Virus record (IMG/VR): IMGVR_UViG_3300005731_000013
Location: 103,977 to 167,976 of that record
Strand: one strand, 5' to 3'
Length of the DNA stretch: 64,000 nucleotides
Source: a virus
Shown here: one piece after another, positions 21,708 to 56,589 of the stretch
Layout: each line of letters begins with the position of its first letter
Position numbering within the stretch: position 1 is the stretch's first letter
Notes under the pieces: generated by a model
What the model saw: only the letters and a program-made list of their open reading frames with translations
What the model was told of the DNA's origin: nothing
The model's database searches: none
Made by a program: the position numbers and the translations under genes

Positions 21708-23026
21708 ATAAATATTTTGAATATAAACAGAATGTAATAGATAATATAAGTGATAGTTTTTGTGCAGCAAAATGGTTCAATGCGACTATATGGTTAGGGC
21801 ATGGGCAGACTGTAAGTTGTCATCATCCCGTATCACATAATATAGATGTTGACGATATAAAAACAAACCCGTCTGCATTGCATAACACAACTAAAAAAAA
21901 AGCAATGCGCAAGGACATGTTGGAAGGCATTCGTCCAGCTGAATGTACATATTGTTGGGCTATTGAAGATCAAAATAATGATACATTATCTGACAGAGTG
22001 TATAAGACTATAATTTATGATAATAGTGACATTGAACATGCCACTTCAACTCCACCGTCATCAGACATGTATCTGCGTAATTTAGAAATATCATTTGGAA
22101 GAACATGTAATTTGGCATGTAGTTATTGCAATCCTGCCTATAGCACAACTTGGGCAAATGATATTAAACGCAATGGCCCATATCCAGAATTGCCGACTGA
22201 TGATTTCCATCAATATCAGACTGATGCTCCTTGGGCAGCTAGTCGTTATAGTGATGAAAATGATAATCCATATATTATTGCTTTTTGGAAATGGTGGGAG
22301 AATGAATTAAAAGATACATTGACTCAACTTAGAGTAACTGGTGGCGAACCTTTTCTTCAGCCCAGTAACTGGAAATTGATTGATGAGTTTATCAAACATG
22401 ACATCAAACATATTAAATTGGCGATTAATAGTAATTTGAGTTTCCCTAAAAAATCATTGATGGATAAAATTATAACAACGTCATTTGATGTCAATGACTT
22501 GGATATCTATACCAGCAATGAATCGACCAAACAGTTTGCAGAATATATTCGTCATGGCATTGATTACAAACAATGGTATAATAATTGTGCTCGTTTATTG
22601 AATGAATCGAATGTTAAGCAATTACATAATATGATGACAATTAATGCATTATGCTTGCATGACATTACATCATTCTTAGATGATATGATGAATCTTAGAA
22701 ATTCTGATAAAGGGCCAATATTAAGTGTTAATTTGGTTCATTCACCAAAATTTCAATCTGTAGATGTTTTGCCGCAGACTATTAGACAACAAAAATCACA
22801 AGAATTGCAAACTTGGGTTGATAACAATATAACAAAATTACATCAACATGAGATTGCTCAGTTAGAAAGACTGATTAAATATCTAAGTAAGCAACAGGTA
22901 TCTGAGGGCTATAGAGATGAGTTACTTCAAGATTTTAAATCATTCTATACAGCATTTGATCTGCGACGTGGAACGAACTTTAAAACAACATTTACAGAAT
23001 TTGCAGATTGGTATGATTTGATATGA
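21704..23026 (+). CDS. Radical SAM protein with N-terminal SPASM-like domain (2 of 5)
   Basis: 440 residues. The 4Fe-4S motif is C135-C139-C142 (CNLACSYC), with VTGGEPF downstream. The N-terminal cysteine set C20, C39 and C81-C84 (CTYC) matches the preceding gene, including AKW and SCHHP. The two are about 30-40% alike by eye and probably arose by duplication. It starts within the previous stop (ATGA) and is followed by the same overlap, so all five enzymes are likely made from one message. It is cytoplasmic, with unknown substrate. Confidence 0.85.
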   Translation: MNKYFEYKQNVIDNISDSFCAAKWFNATIWLGHGQTVSCHHPVSHNIDVDDIKTNPSALHNTTKKKAMRKDMLEGIRPAECTYCWAIEDQNNDTLSDRVYKTIIYDNSDIEHATSTPPSSDMYLRNLEISFGRTCNLACSYCNPAYSTTWANDIKRNGPYPELPTDDFHQYQTDAPWAASRYSDENDNPYIIAFWKWWENELKDTLTQLRVTGGEPFLQPSNWKLIDEFIKHDIKHIKLAINSNLSFPKKSLMDKIITTSFDVNDLDIYTSNESTKQFAEYIRHGIDYKQWYNNCARLLNESNVKQLHNMMTINALCLHDITSFLDDMMNLRNSDKGPILSVNLVHSPKFQSVDVLPQTIRQQKSQELQTWVDNNITKLHQHEIAQLERLIKYLSKQQVSEGYRDELLQDFKSFYTAFDLRRGTNFKTTFTEFADWYDLI

Positions 23027-24381
23027 CAAAAAGAATAAAGCCTATCATTAATGATGATGGTAGCAATTCAAAAGATTCAAATAATTTGACATTCTGTATG
23101 GCTCCTTGGACACATACCTTTCTAAGTCCACAAGGTGAACGAAGGATGTGTTGTACAAGTCGTGAGCAATCACAATTCCAAAAACAATATATTGATTCAG
23201 GAACCTCTGCGCAATCATCTTCATTTAAACCAAAAACTTTGGAAGAACATTGGAATAGTGAATATATGTGTTCGATTCGAAAAAAACTGTTGGCTGGCGA
23301 GACACTTACTCAATGCGAAATATGCAATAGTGACAGGTTTAATGCAAATAATTATAGGAAATGGTTCAATCTATTATTTAAAGATAAAATTGATGATGTA
23401 TTTGCCAATACATCGTCTGATGGTAAGACAACTATGAATCCTGTGTCATTTGATTATCGAGTAAGCAATTTATGCAATTTTAAATGCAGAATGTGCGGCG
23501 AATTATTCAGTAGCAGTATTGAAGCAGAAAAGAAAAAGCATAATATGTGGTCAGCTGAAAATCAACCATTTATGGAACCATCAACAAAAAAAATGATGCA
23601 ACAATTTCAAACATCTGTAGCAGAGGTTGAATTCAAAGAGGCAATTAAATCTGGGACTGTCGAAGAAATTTATTGGGCTGGTGGCGAACCACTTATGTTT
23701 GACACACATTGGTGGGCAATGGAATATATGACATCTCATAATTTGGCGTCTGATTGCATTGTTAGATACAATACAAATTTGAGCAGGACTACATATAAAG
23801 GAATGAAATTATATGAATATCTGTCAGAATTCAAAGACTGGCAAATATGTGCGAGTATTGATGGCGTTGGGCAAACGGTCGAATTCATTCGAAAAGGCAT
23901 TGTGTGGGATAATTGGTTGGCTAATTTTAAAGATGGTTTAAAATTAGAAGGTGGGGAAGATAGAATGATTATTGATTTGACAGTCACTGGTCCTGGTATG
24001 TTTGATTTGAAGCATTTATTTGATCTTTCACAAGAATTAAATGTTAGAATAGAAACTAAAAACATGTTTGCCTTTGAACCAGATATTATATTTTCGCCAT
24101 TGGCATGGCCAAGAAAAATACTAAATAATCACATTGATGCACTATTGGATTATATGGAGCCATTAGCAACTCATAAACAATCATCATTGATAAGGTGTTT
24201 ACATAGTTTAAAAGAACAACCAAATTTTGAAGAACAATGGCCAACAGATGTAGATGATGCATTTAAACAAGGCAAGGCTCATCAAGATAGATTGGATTCT
24301 ATTAGAAATGAACAGTATACCATAAAGGACATTTATGCACAAAATGATGAATTATCTCGATGGTGGAATAGATATGACTAA
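23023..24381 (+). CDS. Radical SAM protein with N-terminal SPASM-like domain (3 of 5)
   Basis: 452 residues. C151-C155-C158 (CNFKCRMC) binds the SAM cluster and WAGGEPLM is the SAM-binding strand. The N-terminal domain has the fuller SPASM-like pattern: C25 in FCMAPWTH, C43-C44 after PQGERR, and C98-C101 (CEIC) after a LEEHWNSE...IRKKLLAGE segment. This pattern also occurs in the next two genes and defines a second subfamily. It overlaps the upstream gene by 4 bases. The predicted role is radical-based modification of a peptide, protein or sugar; no substrate is indicated. Confidence 0.85.
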   Translation: MTKRIKPIINDDGSNSKDSNNLTFCMAPWTHTFLSPQGERRMCCTSREQSQFQKQYIDSGTSAQSSSFKPKTLEEHWNSEYMCSIRKKLLAGETLTQCEICNSDRFNANNYRKWFNLLFKDKIDDVFANTSSDGKTTMNPVSFDYRVSNLCNFKCRMCGELFSSSIEAEKKKHNMWSAENQPFMEPSTKKMMQQFQTSVAEVEFKEAIKSGTVEEIYWAGGEPLMFDTHWWAMEYMTSHNLASDCIVRYNTNLSRTTYKGMKLYEYLSEFKDWQICASIDGVGQTVEFIRKGIVWDNWLANFKDGLKLEGGEDRMIIDLTVTGPGMFDLKHLFDLSQELNVRIETKNMFAFEPDIIFSPLAWPRKILNNHIDALLDYMEPLATHKQSSLIRCLHSLKEQPNFEEQWPTDVDDAFKQGKAHQDRLDSIRNEQYTIKDIYAQNDELSRWWNRYD

Positions 24382-25597
24382 CAAACATTTTTGTATATTG
24401 CCTTGGATTCACATGCATATCTGGCCTAATGGGTCAACTTATCCATGCTGTTTGGCAAAGACTGATTATGTAGTAGGAAACACAAATAATAATAGCATTT
24501 CAGAATTATTCAATTCTGAAAAAATGAAAACCCTACGTGCAAATATGCTAGCAGATAAACCAACCTCGGCATGTGCCAAATGCTATGAGCATGAACAATT
24601 GGGTATAGAAAGTCATAGGCTATGTATGAACAGAGATTTCGCCCATCTTGAGCATGTTACTGCCCAAACCCATCTAGATGGCCAAATTGACAATATTCAA
24701 ATGGCCTATATGGATATCAGGTTTTCAAATATATGTAATTTCAAATGTCGAACTTGCTGCCCTGAATTGAGTTCTGCTTGGGTTGATGATGCAATCACGT
24801 TAGGTCAATATAATAAAAATCAACCCAAATACATCAAATTTAAACCGACAATTGATACAGTATGGGATGACATCAGTGAATGGATCGACACAGTGGAATA
24901 TATATATTTTGCTGGAGGCGAACCACTGATAATGGATGAACATTATCAAATTTTACAATATCTGATAGATAATAATAAAACACATATCCGTATCGCATAT
25001 AATACAAATTTTAGCAAATTGAATTTTAAAGGTACTAATGTTTTAGAAATGTGGCAGAAATTTGATAATGTTCATTTAGGTGCCTCATTAGATGCAATGG
25101 GCCCCCGCGCCGAATTAATGCGCAAAGGCACAAAATGGAATATTATCGAACAGAATAGAATAGCGTTGATGGATCAAGCACCACATGTTAATTTTCAAAT
25201 TAGTTGTACCGTAAGTGCGTTTAATGCTATTCACATGTTTGATTTCTTTGATGATTGGTTAAACAAGCAATGGGTTACTCCTGACAGAATTGATTTGAAT
25301 TTATTGCTCGATCCATCACACATGCGGGCATCAATTTTACCAAGACAGGATAAAAACAATATAATAACAAAAATTGATAAGTATGTTAACATGTATGATT
25401 TGCAGAATATTGACCACCATGGACGAGCGTATGCCAGCATGTCTGCCTTAAAAAATATGATGCTTGATACATCGACTGATAATACTAATGCAACACAGTT
25501 TTTTAAATACAATAATTTGTTAAATAATATACGTAATGAAGACTTATTGTCTATTTTTCCAGAATTGAGATACGCTTATGAAAATACAAATAGTTAG
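24374..25597 (+). CDS. Radical SAM protein with N-terminal SPASM-like domain (4 of 5)
   Basis: 407 residues from the ATG at 24374, preferred over an ATG at 24335 because it overlaps the previous gene by only 8 bases and begins right at the conserved FC..PW motif. SPASM-like cysteines are C7 (FCILPWIH), C25-C26 (STYPCC) and C67-C70 (CAKC). The radical SAM cysteines are C121, C125 and C128 (CNFKCRTC), with FAGGEPLIMDEHY downstream. The C-terminal part of the next protein has the same FAGGEPLIMDEHY segment, so these two are the closest pair. Confidence 0.85.
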   Translation: MTNKHFCILPWIHMHIWPNGSTYPCCLAKTDYVVGNTNNNSISELFNSEKMKTLRANMLADKPTSACAKCYEHEQLGIESHRLCMNRDFAHLEHVTAQTHLDGQIDNIQMAYMDIRFSNICNFKCRTCCPELSSAWVDDAITLGQYNKNQPKYIKFKPTIDTVWDDISEWIDTVEYIYFAGGEPLIMDEHYQILQYLIDNNKTHIRIAYNTNFSKLNFKGTNVLEMWQKFDNVHLGASLDAMGPRAELMRKGTKWNIIEQNRIALMDQAPHVNFQISCTVSAFNAIHMFDFFDDWLNKQWVTPDRIDLNLLLDPSHMRASILPRQDKNNIITKIDKYVNMYDLQNIDHHGRAYASMSALKNMMLDTSTDNTNATQFFKYNNLLNNIRNEDLLSIFPELRYAYENTNS

Positions 25598-27533
25598 TCA
25601 AGTTAGAAGCGGCAGCACCTATCTATGTAAATTATTTGGGTTATATACAGCTAACACTTATAATGAGCCATTTTTAGACTATAACAAATTAGAACAATCA
25701 TCTATTAAATCAATTTGGCAGCGGAGATTTGATGCTTTAAATATTGATTCGTCGTTCGTCATCAAATCACATTATTTTCAACTAGAACAAATGGAACAAC
25801 AATTATTAAATCAGATTCAAGAAATTGATTTTGATATGACTATTTGTTTACTCCGAAAAGATATGTTTGAGCAAACATTAAGTCATACCATTGCCCAACA
25901 ATCAAATGTATGGTCTAAACCATCAGATGGACTTGATAAATTAACTATAGATGAAACAAGTTTTAAACACAATATTGATTTTAGATTTGCAGATGTATCT
26001 AATTGTATCGAAAATAAATTAGGAATAAAATATGATCACGTAATATTTTATGAAGATTTGACGTTCGATCCTGCTAAAGATAGATTGTTGTTTTCATTGC
26101 CATCTAAAGAGAAATATGAGCTGCCTCAAACAAAATTTAAAGACAAACAAAAACAAGTAACCAACTATGATGCATTGAAAGACATTTACGAAACCCATAG
26201 TATGAAATATAACCTAGGTCAAATTGATGTTACCAATTTGATTGCGAATGACGGGTGTTATATTCCTAAAATCAAACAGCTTATTGCAAAGGGTGCATCA
26301 CCACAAGAAATGATCGACAATACCACTACATACTGTCCTCATTTGTGGTCACAATTACATGTGGATACTGGTGGTAATGTCAGACCATGTTGTGTGACAA
26401 ATCATAAATTCAAACCAATAGCACATATTGATGATAAACCAATATCTAAGATATGGAAAGATGATTTTGCACAACGACGAAAGACATTATTAAATGATCA
26501 GCCATTGGCTGAATGCAAATCATGTTATCGTGCTGAGCAAAAATATCATACCAGTAATCGTATTACCAGTATTGAAAATTATCATAACCATGTTGCACCA
26601 AAGATTTTAAATGATATTCAAACAGAAATAATCAATGTGGATATTCGGTTTTCAAATCTATGTAATATGCGTTGTCGTTCGTGTGGCTTTTTCGCCAGTA
26701 GTAAATGGTATGATGATGAAATTGCATTAAAACCAAACGCCCCGAAACCAGCAGCAAGAGTAATTAATGCATCACAATCCAATAGTGATATGATTGACCA
26801 ATTGACCCCTAACTTGACATCATTACAGGAAATATATTTTGCAGGTGGCGAACCATTAATAATGGATGAACATTATATATTATTAGATAGGCTACTGGAT
26901 TGTGGTAATACACAACTCAAATTAAGATATAATTCAAATGGCTCTAAATTGAAATTTAAACAATATGATGTAATTGATTATTGGAATAAATTTGATAAAG
27001 TGGTGTGTGCTTTAAGTGTAGATGCAATGGGGAAGGTCGGCGAACTGGTAAGAAAAGATACCAAATGGAATGAAATTGAAGCGAATGCTATCAGAATTAA
27101 GAACGATGCGCCACATGTATATTTAAAAATTTCTCCTACAATACAAATATATAACATGTTTGCATTTACAGAGTTACATCGCTCTTGGATTGAAAAAGAC
27201 ATAATCGGCCCTGGTCAATTATGGATGAATAATTTACAAACACCTGATATGTATAATATTGGAATATTACCTAAGGTATTTAAAGACAAAGTAGCAGCTA
27301 ATTTGAATCAACACATGGAATGGCTGACTACTGAATTTTGCGACGACGCAATAAAAGATAATTTGTTGATACAAGGAACAATTGATTTCATGTATGCACA
27401 ACAAACAAATCTTAAGTCACTCAGAAATATGTTCATTGCAACTGACGAATTGGATAAATTGCGCAATGAATCTACATATGATGTAATTCCTGAGTTGAAC
27501 GAACTAAAACAATGGTACATGGAAAACAAATGA
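25578..27533 (+). CDS. Sulfotransferase-like / radical SAM fusion protein (5 of 5)
   Basis: 651 residues with two parts. Residues 1-235 begin IQIVSQVRSGSTYLCKLF, the 5' phosphosulfate-binding loop pattern of PAPS-dependent sulfotransferases, with TICLLRKDMFEQTLS near 88-101 as the 3' phosphate-binding strand. Residues 250-651 are a SPASM-like domain (C253, C271-C272, C313-C316) followed by a radical SAM core (C362-C366-C369, FAGGEPLIMDEHY). The start overlaps the previous gene by 20 bases and the stop overlaps the next ATG. A stand-alone relative of the N-terminal domain is the next gene. A single reading frame covers both domains, so this looks like a genuine fusion. Confidence 0.8.
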   Translation: MKIQIVSQVRSGSTYLCKLFGLYTANTYNEPFLDYNKLEQSSIKSIWQRRFDALNIDSSFVIKSHYFQLEQMEQQLLNQIQEIDFDMTICLLRKDMFEQTLSHTIAQQSNVWSKPSDGLDKLTIDETSFKHNIDFRFADVSNCIENKLGIKYDHVIFYEDLTFDPAKDRLLFSLPSKEKYELPQTKFKDKQKQVTNYDALKDIYETHSMKYNLGQIDVTNLIANDGCYIPKIKQLIAKGASPQEMIDNTTTYCPHLWSQLHVDTGGNVRPCCVTNHKFKPIAHIDDKPISKIWKDDFAQRRKTLLNDQPLAECKSCYRAEQKYHTSNRITSIENYHNHVAPKILNDIQTEIINVDIRFSNLCNMRCRSCGFFASSKWYDDEIALKPNAPKPAARVINASQSNSDMIDQLTPNLTSLQEIYFAGGEPLIMDEHYILLDRLLDCGNTQLKLRYNSNGSKLKFKQYDVIDYWNKFDKVVCALSVDAMGKVGELVRKDTKWNEIEANAIRIKNDAPHVYLKISPTIQIYNMFAFTELHRSWIEKDIIGPGQLWMNNLQTPDMYNIGILPKVFKDKVAANLNQHMEWLTTEFCDDAIKDNLLIQGTIDFMYAQQTNLKSLRNMFIATDELDKLRNESTYDVIPELNELKQWYMENK

Positions 27534-28267
27534 CCCACATACATATTTTATCATCAGCAAGATCTGGAAGCACATACTTATATAACATGTTACGGATTAA
27601 AAATAATCCTGAGCAAGAGTGCTACGTGAAAGATGAGTTATCCTTCAATGACCCATTCAATATTTACGGGATGGTTGACAGCACAACATCAGAAGAATTG
27701 ATAGCATATAGATTAAATTATATTGAATCACATACCGAGCCATTGGTAATCAAAAATCATATCACTATGCTTGATTTTCTATCTTCTGAAGATTTGGATA
27801 GATTGCGGGCACTTGATTTAGATACAATTATATTATTGAGACAAGATTTATTTGCAACAGCATGTAGTCTTATTCTAGCAGAAACAACTGAAGAATGGAC
27901 ATTCTATGATAATCATAGTCGTCCAGTGCATTTAGATGAGACTACATTCATTTCAAAATTAAATGATGTCTTGACAGATTACAATAAATTACATACAAAT
28001 AAGTATAAATTTATTGATCCGACATATGTTTATTATGAAGATCTATCAGGGGATCCGAATTTAGATATTTTATTGTTTGATGAAAAATTTGATAAACAAA
28101 TTAGTGTAGATGACATTGTAACTCGTTCACCAAGTAAACAAGATAGAATCACTAACTATGCGCAATTGAAATCTATAAGTGACTCATATTATGATTCAGA
28201 ACATATAAAAAACACATTTCCTGAACTTTCTATAAAAGAATCAAAAATAATTACAAAAAAGGCTTGA
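27530..28267 (+). CDS. Sulfotransferase-like P-loop protein
   Basis: 245 residues from the ATG at 27530 (ATGA overlap with the previous stop; an ATG at 27512 is less likely). It opens with ILSSARSGSTYLYNML, the same nucleotide-binding loop as the fused domain of the preceding gene, and carries TIILLRQDLFATACS as the probable second PAPS-binding element. Known enzymes of this fold move sulfate from PAPS to sugars, tyrosines or small molecules; no PAPS-making gene is in the window. Sequence past residue 200 is Lys/Asp/Ser-rich. It closes the radical SAM operon. Confidence 0.65.
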   Translation: MTHIHILSSARSGSTYLYNMLRIKNNPEQECYVKDELSFNDPFNIYGMVDSTTSEELIAYRLNYIESHTEPLVIKNHITMLDFLSSEDLDRLRALDLDTIILLRQDLFATACSLILAETTEEWTFYDNHSRPVHLDETTFISKLNDVLTDYNKLHTNKYKFIDPTYVYYEDLSGDPNLDILLFDEKFDKQISVDDIVTRSPSKQDRITNYAQLKSISDSYYDSEHIKNTFPELSIKESKIITKKA

Positions 28268-42268: not shown

Positions 42269-43090
42269 TTAGGCTAGCGCAAGAAAATTATGCATTTGCA
42301 AATTAACACGATAACCATATTTCAATGCATATTGCCCTGCATATTCATGATTGATACGATTAGCATCAGTATCAAATAACCCGCCTTCCCAGAAACTAGC
42401 AACCTCATCAGGAACCAATTTACCATCAGTTGCATCATCTCCTGACAATTCGCCTTCAATTTTGGTTGTTGGGACAGTGTAATATTTGTTTATTGGACTA
42501 ATGTATACACGAGCAGTATCATCTTCTGTAACCCAATCAGGTATATTATGATATACATCAGTTGGGTCAGCATCAATTAAAAATTTCAAAGCATCTGCAT
42601 GTTTATATGCTTTAGGATGAATTTTTTTATATGATGTAGGATTCCCAGCACTATCTTCATTGCATTTAGGTGAGACCACTATGATAGCTCGATCCTCGAT
42701 ACCGTCAACCCATAGCATTCCATTTGTTTCGATTTGGAAATCTAATAGATCTAAATCAGTTTCTCGCATAAAATCAATGAATGATAGGATATTCTTTTGC
42801 AGCATTGGTTCGCCGCCAGTAATCACAATGTTAGATGTAGATACATTCTCAGGTAATTCTTCAGAAATCTTGTCTGCAATTTCTGAGAATGTCATATCAA
42901 CACCTTGCTCGAAAAAGGCATCACAAAAATGACATGTCAAATTACAATGTGATAGGCGAATGAACACCGCAGGTTTCCCCATCAATGGACCTTCGCCTTG
43001 GATTGTGTAAAATATACTTCGAACTTTTAATACGTCAGTAGCATAATCTTTAAAATATTTCCGCCCTGTAATTGCGTTTGCTCCAAACAA
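42269..43090 (-). CDS. queE: 7-carboxy-7-deazaguanine synthase (QueE, radical SAM)
   Basis: 273 residues. It converts carboxy-tetrahydropterin to 7-carboxy-7-deazaguanine. FYTIQGEGPLMGKPAVFIRL is the QueE substrate segment, C49-C53-C56 (CNLTCHFC) binds the SAM cluster and ITGGEPMLQ the SAM. The start is a TTG at 43090: AAGGAG lies 6 bases before it and no ATG fits. It is longer than bacterial QueE (about 220-240), with an insertion near 195-235. With FolE, the QueD-like protein and DpdA it gives most of a deazaguanine DNA-modification route; QueC is not in the window. Confidence 0.92.
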   Translation of the reverse strand: MFGANAITGRKYFKDYATDVLKVRSIFYTIQGEGPLMGKPAVFIRLSHCNLTCHFCDAFFEQGVDMTFSEIADKISEELPENVSTSNIVITGGEPMLQKNILSFIDFMRETDLDLLDFQIETNGMLWVDGIEDRAIIVVSPKCNEDSAGNPTSYKKIHPKAYKHADALKFLIDADPTDVYHNIPDWVTEDDTARVYISPINKYYTVPTTKIEGELSGDDATDGKLVPDEVASFWEGGLFDTDANRINHEYAGQYALKYGYRVNLQMHNFLALA

Positions 43091-45091: not shown

Positions 45092-45769
45092 TTATTTGTT
45101 TGAATTTACAATACTCATAAATTCGCCACGCAACGAGGCATCAGTTTTAAATGCGCCACCTAGCTTGCTTGTCACAGTGCTAGACCCAGTGTCTTCTACG
45201 CCACGGCTTTTAACGCAATAATGTGATGCATCTACAACCACTGCAACATTATCTGTGCCAAGAATATACTGCAATGCATGATATACTTGTTCAGTCAAAC
45301 GTTCTTGAATTTGAGGTCGTTTTGCGAAATATTCAACAACACGGTTGATTTTACTTAATCCCAATACTTTATCTTCTGGGATATATCCAACAGTAGCCAA
45401 ACCATCAATTACAACAAAATGGTGTTCACAATTTGATTGCACATTGATATTTCGTTCAATTACCATTTCGTCATATTTCATTTTATTTGCAACGGCTGTG
45501 CATTTAGGAAACGCTTCATAATCAAGCCCCCAAAAGATTTCGTTGACATACATTTTTGCTACTCGCTTAGGAGTTTCTACTAGACTGTCATCATTAAGAT
45601 CTAGTCCAAGGAGTGTCATAATTTGAGTGAAATGTTTTTCGATTTCAGTGATCTTTTCAGTTCGGTTCAGGTCACTGTCAATTGTTGGAGTCTCTACTCC
45701 ACATTCCACTAAATGTTTGTGAATTTGTTTACCCAACTCAGGGTCAGTTTTATTTTTATTAAATGCCAT
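45092..45769 (-). CDS. folE: GTP cyclohydrolase I
   Basis: 225 residues. It converts GTP to dihydroneopterin triphosphate, the first step to both folate and 7-deazaguanines. The zinc ligands are C114 and H117 in SNCEHHF and C185 in [25 protein letters not shown] is the conserved core and [14 protein letters not shown] the C-terminal substrate site. Start ATG has AAGGAAGGAA upstream. It lies just below the heptose genes, separated by a hairpin and a late-type promoter. With QueE and the QueD-like protein it probably feeds DNA base modification, though it could also support the phage ThyA/DHFR folate cycle. Confidence 0.94.
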
Positions 45770-45807: not shown

Positions 45808-45839
45808 GTTGTTACCTTTGTGTAACAACTCTATTTATG
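45808..45839 (-). promoter_or_regulatory. Late-type promoter CATAAATA with adjoining hairpin
   Basis: On the - strand CATAAATA (45839-45832) begins directly after the HddA-like stop; a GTTGTTAC/GTAACAAC stem (45829-45808, 6-base loop) follows. The pair could end the heptose transcript, start a late folE transcript, or cap its 5' end. Confidence 0.45.
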
Positions 45840-45840
45840 A

Positions 45841-46851
45841 TTAGACTTTTATAATATGTGATTTACTATCAGTAAAATTGATAGAAATCACATTATTAGA
45901 TCCAAACTCATTTTTAAATTCTGGGATCAAAGCAGGATCTAATAAGAACATGACAAACCCGCCGCCACCAGCACCGAGTAATTTGCCGCCATATGCGCCC
46001 ATATCCATGCCCGTATTATATATATCATCAACAGTTGTATTTGTCACGCCATTACTTAAATTTTTCTTCAACGACCACCCTTGGTTGAGTAAGTTGCCTA
46101 ATTCTTTCATGACTTCCATATCGTCACTATCACGTTCTAAGATTGATTTGCCTTCAGCTGCCATATCATACATTGTACTTAGATATGATGCATTTGATCC
46201 TTGTTTGGTATGTTCGATTTGTTCAGATAAAATATTACTTGCATGGCGCACAATATCAGTATACACTAATATCATGCAACTATTTAATGTTGCTGCTCGT
46301 GATGCCGATAATTCTAGAGGTTGGCGGGCAATATCAATTTGATCATTATTCATTGCAAAATCATATCGTGCTAAGCCTCCATATGCTGCATGAGTTTGAT
46401 CTTGAACCCCAACATTTTCATTCAAAATATCTCGTTCTAAACGAATGGCATCAATCGCCAAGGTTTCTGCATTAGATACTGCATCATTATGTTTGAGTTG
46501 ATTGATCAAATTAATAAATCCAACTGTAAAACTAGATGAACTACCGAGGCCTGTCCCACCAGGAAGATCACTCACAGTATAAAATCCAGTTGGAACATCA
46601 TATTTGTGTTCACGCAAGACTTCACGAATGACTGGATGTGAGATTTCATCAATAGTGTCACAATCTTCAACAACACGATAACTGACTCGATATTTTTGCA
46701 TTGCAAATGGAGCCAAATCTGTCGCAGTAGTATATATATATTTGTCAATTGTGCCGCCTAATACTGCGCTAGGATTATTTTGAAAATATTCAGGATAATC
46801 TGTCCCGCCACCAAAAAAACTAACTCGTAATGGGGTTTTACTTATATACAT
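45841..46851 (-). CDS. hddA: Heptose-7-phosphate kinase (HddA-like, GHMP family)
   Basis: 336 residues, normal for HddA. It phosphorylates C1 of D-glycero-D-manno-heptose 7-phosphate with ATP. The opening ISKTPLRVSFFGGGTDYPEYF is typical of HddA/sugar GHMP kinases, the phosphate loop is PGGTGLGSSSSFT (97-109), and GAYGGKLLGAGGGGFVMF is the C-terminal GHMP motif. It overlaps the fusion gene upstream by 14 bases. With GmhA and the HddC-GmhB fusion it makes activated heptose. A fucose kinase-type relative cannot be wholly excluded, but the neighbours settle it. Confidence 0.88.
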   Translation of the reverse strand: MYISKTPLRVSFFGGGTDYPEYFQNNPSAVLGGTIDKYIYTTATDLAPFAMQKYRVSYRVVEDCDTIDEISHPVIREVLREHKYDVPTGFYTVSDLPGGTGLGSSSSFTVGFINLINQLKHNDAVSNAETLAIDAIRLERDILNENVGVQDQTHAAYGGLARYDFAMNNDQIDIARQPLELSASRAATLNSCMILVYTDIVRHASNILSEQIEHTKQGSNASYLSTMYDMAAEGKSILERDSDDMEVMKELGNLLNQGWSLKKNLSNGVTNTTVDDIYNTGMDMGAYGGKLLGAGGGGFVMFLLDPALIPEFKNEFGSNNVISINFTDSKSHIIKV

Positions 46852-48010
46852 TGTTAATTAAATCCTTAAAGCTTTCGAAGATGTTACCTCCGTTAAATTT
46901 GTATCCTGCTATACCTGCATTATTCGCAGCTTGAACATCTATATCTTTATCACCAATCATAAAACTATGATCAATATCAATATTCCATTCAACAAACAAT
47001 TCATTGAGCATACCAGCATTTGGTTTACGTCTAGGGCCATCTTTATCAATACAATATTTGATGCCATCTATATGTCCGCCAACCTTACATAAATTATACT
47101 GCATTTCTCTAAAGAAATCAAGAACATAGTGCTCATTAAAATGACCTTTACTGACACCAGCTTGATTAGATACAATGAATACATAATATCCTGCTTGATT
47201 TGCAGCCAATATAAGTTCTTTAGCCCCATCAATCCATCGCAAATCATCTGGCAGATGAGTATAACCATCATCATGATTTAACGTTCCATCTCTATCTAAA
47301 AACAAGGCAGGCCGCTTGATATGCGATATCAATTCTGTTTGTGCTAATGCATAATCGTCAGGCACACCAATATCAATGAAATATGCGTCTGCATCACAGA
47401 ATGACGCTTGCATTTGATGATCGTGTGCCACTTTGGGCATGATATCATTTTCTAAGGAAATGAATGTATTTGTTGGCAAATCGTGAAGTATACTTTTGCA
47501 AATAGTGTAAACACCACCATTTATATAATTAGGTGTAGCAATATCATCACGTTGGACAAAATTTGTAATCAGGTTACCGTCGAGTTGCAATGTATCATAT
47601 CTAGATGCATTTTTTACATGCCTTACGGCAACTATCATACCAGCCTTAACAGGTGACATCATGCTGGTTAAATCGACATCTAACCAGCTATCGCCATTGC
47701 GGACAAGAAAAAAATCATCCAAATAATCAAGCGCATTTACTAATCCGCCGCCCGTGCCCAATGGAGTATTTTCAATGATTACTTTTATTGTAGCATGGTT
47801 CATTTTTTTATTATGATAATAGTTATAAATTTTGTCGCCCAAATGCCCTGCCAACAAAATTATTTCTTCAAAACCATAACGAACAGTATCTTGAATAAGA
47901 TAATCTAAGAATGGCTTTCCTGCTACATCAAGAAATGGTTTGGGTGTGTTCGCTGTTAAATCACCCAAACGTGTTCCTTTGCCGCCACATAATATGACAG
48001 CTTGTTTCAA
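46838..48010 (-). CDS. Heptose-1-phosphate nucleotidyltransferase / heptose bisphosphatase fusion (HddC-GmhB-like)
   Basis: 390 residues with two enzymes. Residues 1-230 are a sugar nucleotidyltransferase: LCGGKGTRLGDLTANTPKPFLDVAGKPF, then GTGGGLVNAL and VRNGDSWLDVDL. Residues 233-390 are a HAD phosphatase of the GmhB/histidinol-phosphatase type: ALFLDRDGTLNHD, FIVSNQAGVSKG and MIGDKDIDVQAANNAG. The zinc loop cysteines of classical GmhB are missing (KYCIDKDGPRRKPNAGM). The pair would remove the 7-phosphate and then add a nucleotide (GDP by analogy to HddC) to heptose 1-phosphate. It overlaps both neighbours. The fusion is in one frame with no sign of error. Confidence 0.85.
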   Translation of the reverse strand: MKQAVILCGGKGTRLGDLTANTPKPFLDVAGKPFLDYLIQDTVRYGFEEIILLAGHLGDKIYNYYHNKKMNHATIKVIIENTPLGTGGGLVNALDYLDDFFLVRNGDSWLDVDLTSMMSPVKAGMIVAVRHVKNASRYDTLQLDGNLITNFVQRDDIATPNYINGGVYTICKSILHDLPTNTFISLENDIMPKVAHDHQMQASFCDADAYFIDIGVPDDYALAQTELISHIKRPALFLDRDGTLNHDDGYTHLPDDLRWIDGAKELILAANQAGYYVFIVSNQAGVSKGHFNEHYVLDFFREMQYNLCKVGGHIDGIKYCIDKDGPRRKPNAGMLNELFVEWNIDIDHSFMIGDKDIDVQAANNAGIAGYKFNGGNIFESFKDLINNVYK

Positions 48011-48567
48011 AATAATGCATCCTCAATAATGGCACAAATCAAATGACCAATTGTGATATGGCATTCTTGAATATGATTAGTTTTATCACTTGGGGCTTTG
48101 ATCATATAATCTGATAATTCATCCAATGCACCAATATTCATACCAGTCAAACCAACAGTATGAATTCCCATTCTTCGAGCAGTCTCGAATGAGTTAATAA
48201 CATTTTTACTATTTCCACTGGTTGACAATCCAATCAAAACATCACCCAATGTTCCAATACCTGACAATTGTCTAGCAAAAACTTCATCATACCCATAGTC
48301 ATTACCAATAGCAGTTAATGCAGAAGTATCTACAGTCAATGCAATAGCAGGCAATGGTTGACGATCTTTCAAAAATCGTCCCATCAGTTCAGCTGCAAGG
48401 TGTTGTGAATCTGCTGCACTACCACCATTACCACAAAAGATTACTTTATTGCCGTTATCTAATGCTTTAATGCAAATATCAGCGACTTTTTGAATATCTG
48501 TTTCAAGTTCTGATAATTTACCAATAGTTTGTTCTGTTGTCTTGATATAATTTTTAATATCAATCAT
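48007..48567 (-). CDS. gmhA: Sedoheptulose-7-phosphate isomerase
   Basis: 186 residues, the normal GmhA length. It turns sedoheptulose 7-phosphate into D-glycero-D-manno-heptose 7-phosphate, the first step of the pathway. The SIS fold shows FCGNGGSAADSQHLAAELMGRF (45-65), then LTAIGNDYGYDEVFARQL and LIGLSTSGNSKNVI, with the catalytic-type His in ECHITIGHLICAIIE. It overlaps the fusion gene and the glycosyltransferase gene by 4 bases each, so all are translated as a set. Confidence 0.93.
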   Translation of the reverse strand: MIDIKNYIKTTEQTIGKLSELETDIQKVADICIKALDNGNKVIFCGNGGSAADSQHLAAELMGRFLKDRQPLPAIALTVDTSALTAIGNDYGYDEVFARQLSGIGTLGDVLIGLSTSGNSKNVINSFETARRMGIHTVGLTGMNIGALDELSDYMIKAPSDKTNHIQECHITIGHLICAIIEDALF

Positions 48568-49628
48568 TTTGTTTTCCTTACCATATTTTCAATCATAATG
48601 TTAGGTGAAATATATTTTTGAATTTTTGTGATCTGTTTCGATAGCAATGCATCATAATAATCATAGTTATCAATTTTATCTTGAATGAATGCAATAATAT
48701 CATCTTTGTGCTTATCATAAGCATCAAATGATGTTGTCCATTCACTCGGATATTTAAATTCATCAAAATAAATTTCACTATAAGCACAACGATCAGGAAC
48801 AATAGGAATACATCCAACTAACGAACCTTCAATCATACTCATACCTAGATTCTCATGTAATGAACAACTGAAAACAATTTTACTTGATGCAAGTTTTGCA
48901 TAATATTCATCTTTTGATAATTGATGTTTTTGTGTGATGAATACGTCGAATATATCACTTAAATCTTCTGCAATTTCAGGTTGTTTGTCATCATTATAAC
49001 GGTGTGGCCACATAATAGTATCAGTTTTAGTTGTTGTATTGTATTTAGACAAAATGTCAAAAAGATACATATATGGCTGTCCACTGAATACAGCCCTATG
49101 ATGAAATTCAGAAGAAATATTTAAATTCGTTAGGAACATATCACGATGAAATTCACTAGCAAAGTAAGTTGCATCACAAGCATAAAATAAACTGCGTTCA
49201 AAATCATGAGGCCATTCCTCTCGCATTTTATAACCTAAAATGTCACTTGGGTCATATGCACCAGCATGTGCAATGCTATGAATTTTCCAGTTTGTCCCCA
49301 TCAAATCACGCATATACGCAATTTGGATGATTACAGGATTCCAAAAATCTGTAAACAAAAATACAGCGTCATCTGCCACATTACCAGCCTCAAATAATTT
49401 GACAAACTCAAGAACTTGTGAACTTTTCCAATAATTTGTATCAGTAAAATTCAAGAATGCACCACTTGTTGTTGTTTGTGAGTTCTGTTGCCCAGCAATT
49501 GAATAGACAGTGCCGCTATCACCAACACTGTCTAAATAATTTTGGATATAAACAGGAACCTCATCAAACCATTGTTTGGTGTAGCGAGCATCTAATGGCT
49601 CCAATGGAAAAATAATAATGTCTGTCAT
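48564..49628 (-). CDS. GT-B glycosyltransferase, candidate heptosyltransferase
   Basis: 354 residues after AAGGAATATT. The C-terminal domain has FSCSLHENLGMSMIEGSLVGCIPIVPD, the donor-binding E-x7-E type segment of GT-B enzymes (GT4-like); the N-terminal half is a Rossmann-like acceptor domain. It starts 8 bases after DpdA and overlaps gmhA, so it is the likely user of the activated heptose made by the next three genes. The acceptor could be modified DNA, a host glycan or a virion protein; DpdA upstream makes DNA worth testing. Confidence 0.72.
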   Translation of the reverse strand: MTDIIIFPLEPLDARYTKQWFDEVPVYIQNYLDSVGDSGTVYSIAGQQNSQTTTSGAFLNFTDTNYWKSSQVLEFVKLFEAGNVADDAVFLFTDFWNPVIIQIAYMRDLMGTNWKIHSIAHAGAYDPSDILGYKMREEWPHDFERSLFYACDATYFASEFHRDMFLTNLNISSEFHHRAVFSGQPYMYLFDILSKYNTTTKTDTIMWPHRYNDDKQPEIAEDLSDIFDVFITQKHQLSKDEYYAKLASSKIVFSCSLHENLGMSMIEGSLVGCIPIVPDRCAYSEIYFDEFKYPSEWTTSFDAYDKHKDDIIAFIQDKIDNYDYYDALLSKQITKIQKYISPNIMIENMVRKTK

Positions 49629-49636
49629 AATATTCC

Positions 49637-51202
49637 TTATTTAAAATCGAATAGATTGTTTACAATAGCAGTTGTGTCACGATATCCTTTAACAATACTT
49701 TGGCTATCTAAATACTCTGCTGCACTATCAATTACATCCATTGGCGTTTCACTAGTCAATGCATCTTCAATAATCTGATTTGTGACTAGAATATCTGATT
49801 TAGTCCAATGGTCAAGAATAACAGATTTCAATTTATTTTTTCTGTTCTTCTTCAATTGCATGTAATCTTGTAATTCAATACCGTCAAATGTTTTGCGTGA
49901 TAAATCAACTGTTTGGTTCACTTGCTGCAATGTTTCAATAGTCTTATATACATTATGTGCCATCACATAAAGATATGTTGACGTATCCCAACTAGTTCTG
50001 CCGACCTTGTTGATTTTATTTTTAGTTCCCTGTGACTCCCACAACTCTGCATCATTAAGCAACTCTTTATCACGCAATGCGTCAGATAAATTGAATTCTT
50101 CTTCAATATCCAATAGGTGGTGATGATTTTCTTGTTGCTTGCGAATCCAAGCCTCTTTTAATGCCTCTGCATTTGGAACACCATGTTCATATACACATAG
50201 ATCTCCAGCTGTCAGACGTTGATAGATAGGGCTCATATTAGGCATTGGAATATCACTCCCCGCATACCGCTTATCATCAACAACCGCATTTGAACTTGCA
50301 ATGAATTTTTCATTGTTCAGCAAAATATTATTATAATGTTGCCCCTTAGTGGCCATAATAAATGCGCTTGCTGCATCATAACTTACATTAATGTCAGGGT
50401 TTACAGTGTTTCTCAAAACACGTTGGATCGTAGTATAATAGCTTGCATATTCAACACGACTAACTCCGAGATAATGTAGCCAATCTTGTTCGCCTTGTTG
50501 CATGAGATTATGGTCTCTCATCCATACCAACAATTTAAGAATAACAACTAAATTTTTACTTGTTGATCCTCCGAAACCGAAACCATCAAATGCATAATCT
50601 TTGACATGATCAAACCAATATTTGGCCTCGTCAACAGTTCGTCCTTGCATAGAATTTAGAAATTTAGTCTGATATTTACGATGCTTTAGAAACCATTCAT
50701 TATTGAATTTTGTATAATCCAAACATTGATCAAAACTGGTAATTCCATTTCTTGAACTATATGGTTCACTAGCAGCAAGCGTTGGAATATCGAGTGTCAT
50801 ACTATAATCGGCAGTATGTTCAAGCCAATTCAAAATCTTATGACGAGTGTCATCATTTGTATAAAAATTGTCCCAATCTTGCTTTAGGATACCTGTAATG
50901 ATCTGGAATCCGCCTGAGTCGCCCAAAATAAAGCTATGATTGCGATCACGTTGCTGCACCATTGCTTCTTCAATATCACTTTTTGCAGTATCGAGTTGAG
51001 CATGACCAGCTGAATAGAGACCATATTTGTAACTGAAATAATTATCTTTTGGTTTTAAAAAATCAAGCCCATCGAGTCCTAGTTCAAATCCTGGCGGGCA
51101 CCGTGTATCAGAATTGGCGAGTGTGCCTGTGTAAAAGCCACTGATACTTGGCATAAAGATGCTATAATCTTTTTGGCTGGTATTGAAATCAACCTGCATC
51201 AT
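49637..51202 (-). CDS. dpdA: DpdA/TGT-like deazaguanine DNA transglycosylase
   Basis: 521 residues after AGGAGAATAATAAA. FILGDSGGFQII (92-102) is the base-binding DSGGFQ motif of the tRNA-guanine transglycosylase superfamily, TLDIPT places D138 as a candidate acidic catalytic residue, and NSMQGRTVDEAKYWF ... FDGFGFGGS and WLHYLGVSR match the barrel motifs further on. The zinc-binding Cys set of bacterial TGT is not visible, as in phage DpdA forms. The family swaps guanine for a 7-deazaguanine in DNA. It is the first gene of an operon with the heptose genes, behind a near-perfect promoter. Confidence 0.82.
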   Translation of the reverse strand: MMQVDFNTSQKDYSIFMPSISGFYTGTLANSDTRCPPGFELGLDGLDFLKPKDNYFSYKYGLYSAGHAQLDTAKSDIEEAMVQQRDRNHSFILGDSGGFQIITGILKQDWDNFYTNDDTRHKILNWLEHTADYSMTLDIPTLAASEPYSSRNGITSFDQCLDYTKFNNEWFLKHRKYQTKFLNSMQGRTVDEAKYWFDHVKDYAFDGFGFGGSTSKNLVVILKLLVWMRDHNLMQQGEQDWLHYLGVSRVEYASYYTTIQRVLRNTVNPDINVSYDAASAFIMATKGQHYNNILLNNEKFIASSNAVVDDKRYAGSDIPMPNMSPIYQRLTAGDLCVYEHGVPNAEALKEAWIRKQQENHHHLLDIEEEFNLSDALRDKELLNDAELWESQGTKNKINKVGRTSWDTSTYLYVMAHNVYKTIETLQQVNQTVDLSRKTFDGIELQDYMQLKKNRKNKLKSVILDHWTKSDILVTNQIIEDALTSETPMDVIDSAAEYLDSQSIVKGYRDTTAIVNNLFDFK

Positions 51203-51266: not shown

Positions 51267-51318
51267 ATTATAGCAGGTTAGCAAACCTACGTCAAGTAAA
51301 TTTATTAACCTGCTATAA
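51267..51318 (-). promoter_or_regulatory. Strong sigma70 promoter TTGACG-17-TATAAT inside an inverted repeat
   Basis: On the - strand TTGACG (51295-51290), 17 bases and a perfect TATAAT (51272-51267) drive dpdA. The 13-bp arms TTATAGCAGGTTA (51268-51280) and its complement (51306-51318) flank the -35, so the -10 is part of one arm. It may be an operator or the terminator of the upstream gene doubling as a promoter. Confidence 0.8.
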
Positions 51319-51644: not shown

Positions 51645-52058
51645 TTAGTTTGTTGACGCAAAAATCAAAGTTGCACCATTTTCATTGTCTTCACTGACAG
51701 TGATCTCTATGCTGCGCCCTGGATATTTGTCATGAATTGTTTCTGCGAGTTCTTGTGCGATCATTTCACAGCTTTTATAATCCAATTTCAACGTTTGTTC
51801 TGCATAGAGCTTTTCAAGCCATCGTTTGAATTGAATAAACTCAATATCTCGATCGTCATGAAATACTTCAATCGCAACTTTGAAATGAAACATGTGGCGA
51901 TGAGGATAACCCAAAAAGCTGACGTCATATTCATCATTTGTTGCCAACTTTGGGTCTTCCAATGCTGCTGGATATTTATGAATTCCTTCTTTTTGGAATT
52001 GCACAAATATCATACTATTTTTCAAAACCAATTTTTGAGTTGAGTTTTGAGTTGTCAT
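51645..52058 (-). CDS. QueD-like (6-carboxytetrahydropterin synthase fold) protein
   Basis: 137 residues after AAGGAGATTAATAA. HRHMFHFKVAIEVFH corresponds to the HGHxYxVxV zinc strand of QueD/PTPS, GIHKYP could supply the first zinc His, YKSCEMIAQELAETI matches the PTxExLA helix, and ITVSEDNENGATL the substrate Glu strand. The catalytic Cys that normally stands a few residues before HGH is absent (SFLGYPHRH). It may be a divergent phage QueD with another general base, or a related pterin enzyme. Deazaguanine genes on both sides support QueD. Confidence 0.6.
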   Translation of the reverse strand: MTTQNSTQKLVLKNSMIFVQFQKEGIHKYPAALEDPKLATNDEYDVSFLGYPHRHMFHFKVAIEVFHDDRDIEFIQFKRWLEKLYAEQTLKLDYKSCEMIAQELAETIHDKYPGRSIEITVSEDNENGATLIFASTN

Positions 52059-52536: not shown

Positions 52537-52953
52537 TCATGTATTGAGACGATTGCGCAATTCTGAACTTGAAAAACGATGGTCACGTTTATTGAAATAT
52601 AACTGAATACCACGCTTCTTACATATATCTTTTCCTGTAAAATCTTTATCTTTATATTCGTCACCTAAGATACGAACATCAATTTGCACAAGTGATAAAA
52701 TGTCTTCTAAATCTTGTTCAGTTTCATATGGAATAATTTCATCAACATATTTGACTGCTGATAATTGCACATATCGTTCTACTAAAGTCTGGACAGGTGA
52801 ATTTTTATGTTCTCTGTCCAGACTTGGGTTTACCTGCAACCCCACAATAAGACGATTACATGTTGCAGCTGATTCACGTAACATTGCAATATGCCCTGCA
52901 TGTAATAGATCAAATGCTGAACATGTAAATCCTGTGTTGTAAGGTGCTGACAT
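52537..52953 (-). CDS. TagD/HldE-C type cytidylyltransferase-like protein
   Basis: 138 residues, the size of glycerol-3-phosphate cytidylyltransferase. FDLLHAGHIAML is the HxGH nucleotide-binding motif, LIVGLQVNPS a core strand, VRILGDEYKDKDFTG the substrate segment and FSSSELRNRL the ISSTxLR-like end. It joins a sugar- or polyol-phosphate to CMP or AMP. Heptose genes on the same strand make a heptose-phosphate (HldE-like) or alditol-phosphate substrate plausible, but the sequence does not choose. It lies 1 base after the clamp gene stop region. Confidence 0.78.
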   Translation of the reverse strand: MSAPYNTGFTCSAFDLLHAGHIAMLRESAATCNRLIVGLQVNPSLDREHKNSPVQTLVERYVQLSAVKYVDEIIPYETEQDLEDILSLVQIDVRILGDEYKDKDFTGKDICKKRGIQLYFNKRDHRFSSSELRNRLNT

Positions 52954-53856: not shown

Positions 53857-56589
53857 TTAGAAACTGAACAAATCGTTAAAGGTTGTCTTAGTCTCTGCAA
53901 GTGACAGATCCCAATCCAAAGTCCCTAACAAGTTGTTGATCTTTTTAGTTACAATTGTTTCTTCCATCTCATCGTTGTCAAACGGAAGCTCTTTATACCA
54001 ATCAGGAATTCGCTTTTCATCAGTTGGGATACCAATGCTTGTCATTCCCAATGGATTTTGTTTGAGTTTACATACAATAGTTTTCATGCCGTCAGCAATT
54101 TCTAAACTATATTGATCATTATTCATTTCACGCAAACGGTTATAATTGATTGCTGCCATGACATGGCCCACGCCACATTTACCAGTGTTTTTCCATTTTG
54201 CAGTATACATAGTCAAATTGTTGACACGTTTAGGTGTCCCCTTTTCCCAAGGCTGCATTTTTCTAAACTCAGTTCTGAAATCACGAATGCGATTAATGAT
54301 ATGGTCTTCACTGGCGCCTTCTAAAGTCTCCTTCAAAATATCCTTAAGAAAATCTTGCATGTATTCAGGTGTATCACTACGCTTGATTTCCAAGCCCATG
54401 ACTTTGAGTTTGCCACGTTTGCCATCAGTATCTACTCGTGTTCCTTCATCATCATACACCAGAATCCCATAGCGTTTTTTACTAATGAATATACCAGTTT
54501 CACCTACAGTTTCACGAGCAGCGGCAATAATGCGACCATATTTTTCTGGACAGTTATGCGCTTTAGACATATAGCCTGGGAAAGTATCATTTACTTGCTC
54601 ACCAACTGCATCATACAGTTCGACAACTCTATCTTTATCCCATGCGAACTCACCACTTTCAATTTGATCCTTAAACACTGGATATGCACTAAAATATACA
54701 GAATCCGTATCACCGTAAATGATACTTTTTCCTACGTGATTGTATTCACCTGTAAATGCTTCATTACTTGCCGCAGACATATGTCTTGCAATGGTACGAC
54801 CAGTCAAAGTAGTTGATTGCCCGAGACGTTGATCAAAAAATCTACTACCTGGATTCAACAACGCACCATATAGTGAATTCAAATTAATCTTTTTCACAAG
54901 TTGGCGCTTATCCCAAAAAGCAAATTCTTTTTCTTTGCCTTTTTTGCCCCTAAACTCTTTTGCTTTCGCTTGAAGCTCTTTACGTTCAGCATACCAACGT
55001 CCCAACAAACTAGGAACCACACCTTGCTTTTCAAATGTAAAGATAGTGCCATTGCTTGTAATACACCAAGGTTTACCATTATGGAAGATCAAGTCATATA
55101 CTTCAGCACCTGAGCATTCATAACTTGTGCCATCTTCAAAGTCGATGTAAAGCTTTTCAACTTTGTCTCGTGCCATAACAAGTTCGTATTCTTTACATGC
55201 GAACTTACCATCCCAATACTTAGGGAACGGACTGTCTTGTTGTGACTTACCAAAGCGAAATACTTCAGCGAAGTCATTAGGGTTGACTACTTTCTTATCA
55301 AAGTGTTTATAAGTTTTGATGAGATCAGCAAGCCCTTGGTTAGTAAACGTATGCCGAACCTGCCCGACAATACACTCTGGGCTCATGTTGCAAGCCCGTA
55401 GAATTGACGGATACAGAGAGTTAAGGTCCATACTACCAATCCACTTGTGCAACCCTTTAACAGGGTTTGCAACATAGGCACCCGCGGCAGGAATATGTTC
55501 TTGCCCTCTAATCTTGTCAGGAACAATCAACCCACGTTTATGTGCTTCATTGACAATAGCTTGGTCAGTTTGCGCAACAGCGCCCATAGTGGTTTGAAGT
55601 AGAACCGTGTTAGCATGAGCAAGCAGGTTTGCCTGGTCAATATATTGCAACTTATCATCTAGTTTACGTAGAAGGTCAGTATCCTGTATGTTATACTCAA
55701 TAAACTTCTTGAAGTCATTGTTGTATAACTGATCCAAAGTCCCTTCATATTCAACTTTCTTTTCACCTAATTCATGTTCAGTAATGGCATCAAGGCTGTA
55801 ACTGTGCATGACATTGTAGGTGTATTTCATATAGAGTTGCATATAGTCAAGGTGGACACGCCCGACTAAATCGTATGTTTCAGCTTCTTTACCATAAGAT
55901 TCATAAGTCCTACGTTTAGGGCTTTGACCCCACAAGCATAGCTTACGAGTGTAATCTTTACCAAGCACTCGTGCAATACGATTGACAATGTATGGAATAT
56001 CGAAGCCTTCGCTGTTCCAACCTGACAAGATATCGGCGTCGTCCACCAGCTCAATAAAGGTTTGCAGCAACTCTTCTTCGCTATCCATTAGGATAACGTC
56101 GTTAAATGATCCTACAATCCCTTCTGCTTCTTCTTGAGACATTTTTTTAGGCTTAATAACAAGACAAATAGTCTTATCAATCCAATTTAAATGTACTCCA
56201 ACAGCCGTAATAGGATTGAATGGGTCACTTGGAGGTGCAAAACCAAGTTCTTTATTGAAATCAACCTCAATATCAAAGAATCCGATATGCAGATTTGGTG
56301 GTTCGGCATCCATATATTCATCAGCCAAACATCTAAAAGTAACATTCATATCACTTTCAAATAATTTTTTACCAGCAAACATTTTCTTTTCTTTATTAAA
56401 TGCTTTGCTGCTTGCAGTTTGAAATCGTTCTAGTTTGTCACCATAAATGCTAGTAAATTTTCCATTTTGGCTCGGATAATAAAATACATAACGTGCAGGA
56501 TATTGAACAAATTCCCGCTCACCATCACTATTTCGTTCTACAACATTTACAATATCACGATTTCTATCATGAAATGCATCAATATAAAT
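53857..56589 (-). CDS. 43: DNA polymerase (T4 gp43-like), probable ATT start
   Basis: 910 residues when begun at the ATT at 56589, against 898 in T4 gp43. FFDIEVD (D106, E108) is exonuclease motif I; DLNSLYPSI (near 386), KINLNSLYGALLN (near 570) and YGDTDSVYF (near 625) are polymerase motifs A, B and C; the end LFSF-type tail binds the clamp. The frame upstream of the first ATG (56382) encodes a further 69 residues typical of the gp43 N-terminus (REFVQYPARYVFYYP, SIYGDKLERF), with no ATG, GTG or TTG. AAGGAG stands 7 bases before ATT 56589, which is one base after the previous stop. A truncated start at 56382 would lose the N-terminal domain. Confidence 0.93.
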   Translation of the reverse strand: MYIDAFHDRNRDIVNVVERNSDGEREFVQYPARYVFYYPSQNGKFTSIYGDKLERFQTASSKAFNKEKKMFAGKKLFESDMNVTFRCLADEYMDAEPPNLHIGFFDIEVDFNKELGFAPPSDPFNPITAVGVHLNWIDKTICLVIKPKKMSQEEAEGIVGSFNDVILMDSEEELLQTFIELVDDADILSGWNSEGFDIPYIVNRIARVLGKDYTRKLCLWGQSPKRRTYESYGKEAETYDLVGRVHLDYMQLYMKYTYNVMHSYSLDAITEHELGEKKVEYEGTLDQLYNNDFKKFIEYNIQDTDLLRKLDDKLQYIDQANLLAHANTVLLQTTMGAVAQTDQAIVNEAHKRGLIVPDKIRGQEHIPAAGAYVANPVKGLHKWIGSMDLNSLYPSILRACNMSPECIVGQVRHTFTNQGLADLIKTYKHFDKKVVNPNDFAEVFRFGKSQQDSPFPKYWDGKFACKEYELVMARDKVEKLYIDFEDGTSYECSGAEVYDLIFHNGKPWCITSNGTIFTFEKQGVVPSLLGRWYAERKELQAKAKEFRGKKGKEKEFAFWDKRQLVKKINLNSLYGALLNPGSRFFDQRLGQSTTLTGRTIARHMSAASNEAFTGEYNHVGKSIIYGDTDSVYFSAYPVFKDQIESGEFAWDKDRVVELYDAVGEQVNDTFPGYMSKAHNCPEKYGRIIAAARETVGETGIFISKKRYGILVYDDEGTRVDTDGKRGKLKVMGLEIKRSDTPEYMQDFLKDILKETLEGASEDHIINRIRDFRTEFRKMQPWEKGTPKRVNNLTMYTAKWKNTGKCGVGHVMAAINYNRLREMNNDQYSLEIADGMKTIVCKLKQNPLGMTSIGIPTDEKRIPDWYKELPFDNDEMEETIVTKKINNLLGTLDWDLSLAETKTTFNDLFSF

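Follow-up and report, generated by a model that had tools for sequence, protein, structure and literature searches.

A glycosyltransferase linked to DpdA across many viruses, and a phage operon that may produce heptosylated 7-deazaguanine DNA

Why should a virus encode enzymes for an activated heptose directly behind dpdA, the gene of a DNA-guanine transglycosylase? The question is raised by IMG/VR virus record IMGVR_UViG_3300005731_000013 (an uncultured virus; 168 kb as a whole, possibly incomplete), of which we analyzed a stretch of 64,000 nucleotides, positions 103,977 to 167,976, here called the window. On its minus strand, dpdA is followed by the gene for a glycosyltransferase (GT) and then by gmhA, an hddC-gmhB fusion and hddA (Table 1). 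We consider it probable, with ample room for error, that these genes form a DNA hypermodification operon giving heptosylated deazaguanine DNA. An earlier sequence-only reading of this locus had proposed that a base inserted by DpdA is then decorated with heptose, and had named conserved linkage in other phage genomes as a check; such linkage between dpdA and GT is what we found, and it strongly supports glycosylation of the inserted base.

IMG/VR was approached from three anchors, namely GT, DpdA and a small conserved protein of the cassette (phrog_17812), with samples that are the best-scoring relatives rather than random ones and in which some contigs are near copies or common to several samples. 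A profile search with GT gave at least 563 relatives, and among the best 80 of these loci, many on truncated contigs, long-type DpdA was present in 73, the small protein in 76, FolE in 61 and QueE in 41, with the cassette adjoining a DNA polymerase gene in 60. From the small-protein anchor, all 31 loci of at least 19 kb held both GT and DpdA; from the DpdA anchor, GT and the small protein were found in 26 of 26 loci of at least that length, and each of the 19 DpdA-anchored loci lacking GT was shorter than 15 kb. A 462-kb virus with no DpdA near its GT encodes one elsewhere; for a 416-kb virus with the same arrangement, a DpdA search gave no match.

The linkage extends to cultured phages of Pseudomonas, Acidovorax, Xanthomonas and Sinorhizobium. 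GT comes immediately behind dpdA in the PA5oct/Paride group, the small protein gene is next, and queE lies some genes later; Sinorhizobium phage Phosso keeps GT together with folE and queE, its dpdA lying ~170 kb distant. The GT of Acidovorax phage ACP17 and of Xanthomonas phage X1 is of the same family and stands beside a shorter, very divergent DpdA, and the linkage persists even where one DpdA type gives way to another, very different one. On bacterial and archaeal genome contigs, 18 of the 20 GT matches have DpdA within ~5 kb. Carriers there include Magnetospirillum, Devosia, Azospirillum, Aurantimonas and Methylobacterium, some possibly being viral sequence binned with the genome, and some of these cassettes have nearby an integrase or a Vut_1 transporter, a family that includes queuosine-precursor transporters; a search of plasmids found nothing. 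Chance adjacency of GT and DpdA is excluded by this linkage, and because GT is a standing DpdA partner across anchors and hosts, it very probably glycosylates the deazaguanine.

Two sets of loci are recorded here in their own right. On alphaproteobacterial contigs (L347-L350 and L353-L358; Magnetospirillum, Methylobacterium, Devosia, Azospirillum, Aurantimonas and Rhizobiales), DpdA and GT occur together, and an integrase, a Vut_1-type transporter or the small protein is often encoded nearby; these contigs may represent mobile islands equipped with a glycosylated-base system of their own. In the phages at L116, L162, L266 and L269, DpdA is 41-42% identical to that of the window and GT just ~20-22%, as if GT had been replaced in place.

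The DpdA of the window is named by none of the Pfam, PHROGs, NCBIfam and PDB sequence searches, and as a single-sequence query against viral contigs it found no relatives, alignments being needed to detect any. For its AlphaFold2 model (mean pLDDT 92), the fold matches in the PDB were nearly all tRNA-guanine transglycosylases (TGTs), which ran through the top 50, with the DNA preQ0 insertase DpdA (7ui4) at rank 26. All 60 relatives keep D95-SGG-Q100 and D276, and a weak profile match places D276 opposite the E. coli Tgt region. The predicted structure thus confirms the protein as a member of the DpdA/TGT superfamily, and the name dpdA that the sequence-only reading had assigned is borne out by predicted fold, with no support from sequence libraries.

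For GT, contact with Pfam was limited to a weak one with Glycos_transf_1, and the AlphaFold2 model (pLDDT 95) has a GT-B fold whose nearest matches are glycogen synthase, BshA and MshA; the T4 alpha- and beta-glucosyltransferases were not among its best 50 matches, as ranked by fold alone. Of 61 relatives, all have R210, K215 and E267 and 59 have E259, and the EX7E motif is intact. Given the GT-B fold, the conserved EX7E and the donor-binding arginine and lysine, GT is predicted to be a retaining GT4-like enzyme and should be active. No other glycosyltransferase was recognized in the ten window genes scanned between 16552 and 30336, a scan that divergent ones can escape.

The open reading frames bear out the positions and order of the five genes as first described, including the 8 bases between the dpdA stop and the GT start and the successive overlaps (4 bases for GT/gmhA, 4 for gmhA/hddC and 14 for hddC-gmhB/hddA). 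The operon is placed between a DNA polymerase gene (53857-56382, with a visible YGDTDS motif) and folE, and a queE-like gene lies further downstream; FolE, QueE and the small protein flank it, beyond the five genes considered earlier. FolE and QueE together with a transglycosylase, the gene set by which a phage 7-deazaguanine system is recognized, are all present. The promoter upstream of dpdA, previously called near-perfect, does match well and has the extended TG, but promoter-like sites in the region number 65 against ~60 expected in shuffles, and for want of an excess the site is a good match and not proof. The interval between hddA and folE contains an inverted repeat, GTTGTTACC..TAACAAC (window 45808-45829), which is a possible terminator or operator.

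Table 1. Features of the cassette, with positions in the window
Feature	Position	Strand	Basis
dpdA, long-type DNA-guanine transglycosylase, 521 aa	49637..51202	-	predicted fold and motif residues
GT-B (GT4-like, retaining) glycosyltransferase (predicted), 354 aa	48564..49628	-	predicted fold, conserved residues, DpdA linkage
gmhA, sedoheptulose 7-phosphate isomerase	48007..48567	-	TIGR00441 4.9e-59
hddC-gmhB fusion, heptose 1-phosphate guanylyltransferase and heptose 1,7-bisphosphate 7-phosphatase domains	46838..48010	-	NF049965 1.6e-40 (residues 2-222), PRK08942 2.2e-34 (residues 233-367)
hddA, heptose 7-phosphate kinase (GHMP family)	45841..46851	-	NF049969 4.2e-38
folE, GTP cyclohydrolase I, first step of 7-deazaguanine synthesis	45092..45769	-	PRK09347 3.3e-97, above cutoff
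queE-like 7-carboxy-7-deazaguanine synthase (radical SAM)	42269..43090	-	phrog_2076 QueE-like 1.7e-43; best NCBIfam matches are QueE models, below cutoff
Small conserved cassette protein (phrog_17812)	51645..52058	-	present in most cassettes
RfaE domain II-like nucleotidyltransferase, possible extra sugar-activating enzyme	52537..52953	-	TIGR02199 8.5e-19, below cutoff
Sigma-70-like promoter upstream of dpdA	51267..51295	-	TTGACG-17-TATAAT, 11/12, extended TG ahead of -10

From the gene content, folds, catalytic residues and GT-DpdA linkage we infer the following course. FolE and QueE, with missing steps supplied by host enzymes or by the small protein, would lead to 7-carboxy-7-deazaguanine or preQ0, and DpdA would exchange guanine in the phage DNA for this 7-deazaguanine base. 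The adjacent GT would then add a sugar to an acceptor atom of the base, most likely after insertion, as known DNA glycosyltransferases do. In this phage and four close relatives, GmhA, HddA, GmhB and HddC would convert sedoheptulose 7-phosphate to GDP-D-glycero-D-manno-heptose, which GT would take as its donor, and the resulting heptosylated DNA should resist host nucleases.

The small protein may be a further enzyme of the deazaguanine pathway. It is 52-69% identical across five unrelated phages, more conserved between phages than DpdA, and it is held by all 16 records in which GT was covered to at least 80%, while being found in just 21 of 50,697 records; it is not strictly tied to GT, since four further phages have it with FolE and without this GT nearby. 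Its pattern of histidines had suggested a QueD, an assignment that profile tests against QueD/PTPS, with no significant match, do not support, and in ACP17, a Rhizobium phage and a Synechococcus phage it stands beside an annotated QueD/PTPS.

The choice of sugar is less certain than glycosylation itself, with heptose the likely one in this lineage. The claim of a complete activated-heptose pathway holds insofar as GmhA, HddC, GmhB and HddA are the best or near-best match of each protein and all four pathway activities are encoded. Close gmhA relatives were found on four other viral contigs only, always in the order dpdA-GT-gmhA-hddC-hddA-folE; within the GT subfamily of the window, heptose genes stand behind GT in the window, L014, L015 and L095, and a fifth carrier, L176, was found separately. 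The anticipated recurrence of a dpdA-GT-gmhA order thus proved widespread for dpdA-GT and restricted to four relatives for the full heptose order, and we therefore take heptose to be a feature of this lineage and not a general one.

Elsewhere the slot behind GT varies. Of 129 unique loci, 31 have folE as the next gene and 13 a gene for an NAD-dependent epimerase, and a few loci have UDP-glucose-dehydrogenase-like and DegT-aminotransferase genes between GT and folE. In a GT subfamily of 24 loci, no member of which exceeds 24% identity to the window GT, the epimerase comes next in 12, compared with 1 of 105 others (Fisher p=1.2e-9, an optimistic value because related loci are not independent). 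A different sugar gene with a different GT subfamily is as expected if the sugar genes serve GT. In the same vein, L018 has a backbone like that of the window (DpdA 72%, polymerase 79%) but a cassette free of heptose genes, and its GT reaches only 52% identity, compared with 61-64% among heptose carriers. The carriers form one clade in the GT tree (support 100/99, and 78/98 in a second row set), which suggests that GT and heptose genes go together. We lean somewhat towards a widespread and so far unrecognized DNA hypermodification in which 7-deazaguanine inserted by DpdA is glycosylated by a dedicated GT, the sugar differing as GT and sugar genes are exchanged in a fixed slot, with heptose the form taken in this lineage.

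Several observations weigh against heptosylated deazaguanine DNA. No QueC (PF06508) and no Pfam-detectable QueD (PF01242) were found in the 168-kb record; because other phages also rely on the host for deazaguanine steps, according to a passage of PMC7824862, neither is required for membership in such a system. All four heptose enzymes score below their curated equivalog cutoffs: GmhA at 199 bits against 209 (TIGR00441), the HddC domain at 139 against 300, the GmhB domain at 119 against 178 (PRK08942) and HddA at 132 against 600. Most phages with this GT are without heptose genes, and hddA relatives also occur at ~76 other viral loci that lack DpdA, accompanied in many cases by gmhA and a nucleotidyltransferase; such genes can serve other glycans. 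Chance adjacency, which had been offered as the alternative and which falls for GT, accordingly keeps some weight for the heptose genes. Nor do backbone trees reject the heptose-carrier clade (approximately unbiased test, p 0.066 and 0.33), so that co-inheritance of GT and heptose genes is only suggestive; the comparison asked whether the carriers group together by GT while the backbone keeps them apart, and with this outcome the GT clade is not taken as proof.

The rarity of heptose genes among cassettes, their occurrence elsewhere without DpdA and the presence of GT without a gmhA relative in the PA5oct group all favor a different reading, in which GT glycosylates DNA deazaguanine with a common host sugar nucleotide and the heptose genes have another purpose, e.g. 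host or virion glycans. We regard this as unlikely, if worth serious consideration: the heptose genes overlap GT and keep that position in four relatives, the other GT subfamily carries a different sugar gene, and L018, without heptose genes on a similar backbone, has a clearly more distant GT. A tRNA target is improbable. Here DpdA and GT would produce a glycosylated queuosine-like base, in the manner of the vertebrate queuosine mannosyl- and galactosyltransferases; sugar-bearing queuosine does exist in tRNA, and the DpdA model matches TGTs as well as it does DpdA, but no TGT zinc motif (CxCxxC..H) can be seen in the window DpdA, no tRNA gene was found in the window, and the usual neighbor of GT-anchored cassettes is a DNA polymerase gene. 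It is more improbable still that GT and the heptose genes modify the host surface or the virion with dpdA as a chance neighbor. GT4 enzymes commonly build surface glycans and the heptose enzymes resemble those of the bacterial GDP-heptose pathway, but the constancy of the GT-DpdA pairing from both anchors, across unrelated phages and bacterial and archaeal contigs, already refutes this for GT. Least credible is a glycosylated pterin made from FolE products, as by the cyanobacterial tetrahydrobiopterin glucosyltransferase (5zer, among the GT fold matches), since QueE and DpdA belong to the same cassette and on several alphaproteobacterial contigs the stretch examined has DpdA and GT but no relative of FolE.

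Phage DNA with sugars attached to pyrimidines is known; to our knowledge, the known deazaguanine DNA bases are not glycosylated, and we know of no heptose on a nucleic acid, so that one would be new. No description of glycosylated deazaguanine in DNA was found in the literature searched, outside which an earlier one may exist. If heptosylated or otherwise glycosylated deazaguanine is indeed made, a dedicated GT so firmly tied to DpdA, on hundreds of viral contigs, would extend glycosylated DNA to a purine-based class, and would give a reason for some of the sugar-nucleotide genes in phage replication regions. The laboratory phages Paride and PA5oct carry the cassette, their GT and DpdA genes being mostly annotated as hypothetical, and make a direct test possible.

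As with the T4-type DNA glucosyltransferases, which act on 5-hydroxymethylcytosine, the proposed role of this phage GT is to add a sugar to a modified base in DNA; unlike them, it would act on a 7-deazapurine rather than a pyrimidine, and its nearest folds are GT4 enzymes. The vertebrate queuosine glycosyltransferases likewise place a sugar on a 7-deazaguanine derivative in nucleic acid, but in tRNA rather than DNA, and GT has no Pfam match to such a family at E 0.1. All the activities of the bacterial GDP-D-glycero-D-manno-heptose pathway are encoded here, whereas HddC and GmhB are fused, all four scores are sub-equivalog as given above and the genes lie inside a DNA modification operon.

Phage 7-deazaguanine DNA modification with DpdA is known from Escherichia phage CAjan and others (Hutinet et al. 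2019, PMC6884629). What CAjan shares with the window is an enzyme of the DpdA fold that is encoded, along with FolE and QueE, next to the DNA polymerase region. QueD and QueC are annotated in CAjan, and within the region examined no gene is annotated as a glycosyltransferase; here, by contrast, no QueC was found, a dedicated GT is present along with heptose genes, and DpdA has diverged too far for sequence libraries to name it. The deazaguanine synthesis and incorporation system of Pseudomonas phage PA5oct was noted by Iyer et al. 2021, in a passage that does not mention glycosylation (PMC7824862). There, relatives of the window DpdA and GT are adjacent and accompanied by the small protein and queE, but no heptose genes lie beside the cassette. 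PA5oct measures ~375 kb in pulsed-field gels (PMC3936114) against a sequence of 287 kb, a difference that might reflect modified DNA and for which other explanations exist.

Other genes recur in and around the cassettes. The cluster of the RfaE domain II-like protein was found in 34 of 158 cassette loci, and a family of ~173 aa, located between dpdA and the small protein gene (as at L058:8680-9198), in 118 of the 158, though not in the window. Genes for a Vut_1 transporter, a phosphoribosyltransferase and an IMP dehydrogenase/GMP reductase-like protein are also recurrent (L139:6835-7434, L055:8037-8567 and L128:618-1667). In Xanthomonas phage PhiXhv-15 (L362), a distant GT relative (24% identity) lies beside annotated glutamine-fructose-6-phosphate aminotransferase and GlcNAc-malate deacetylase genes, perhaps an amino-sugar pathway.

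Away from the cassette, the tail genes of the window are followed at 20151-28267 by a radical SAM/SPASM-like run and then by sulfotransferase-like proteins, homologs of which occur near some cassettes. Large proteins sharing an 'ARQIVWHL'-like start, encoded near positions 40470, 48126, 63220, 80695 and 83375 of the G000 record (L004-L006), may be a proliferated family, perhaps of homing endonucleases.

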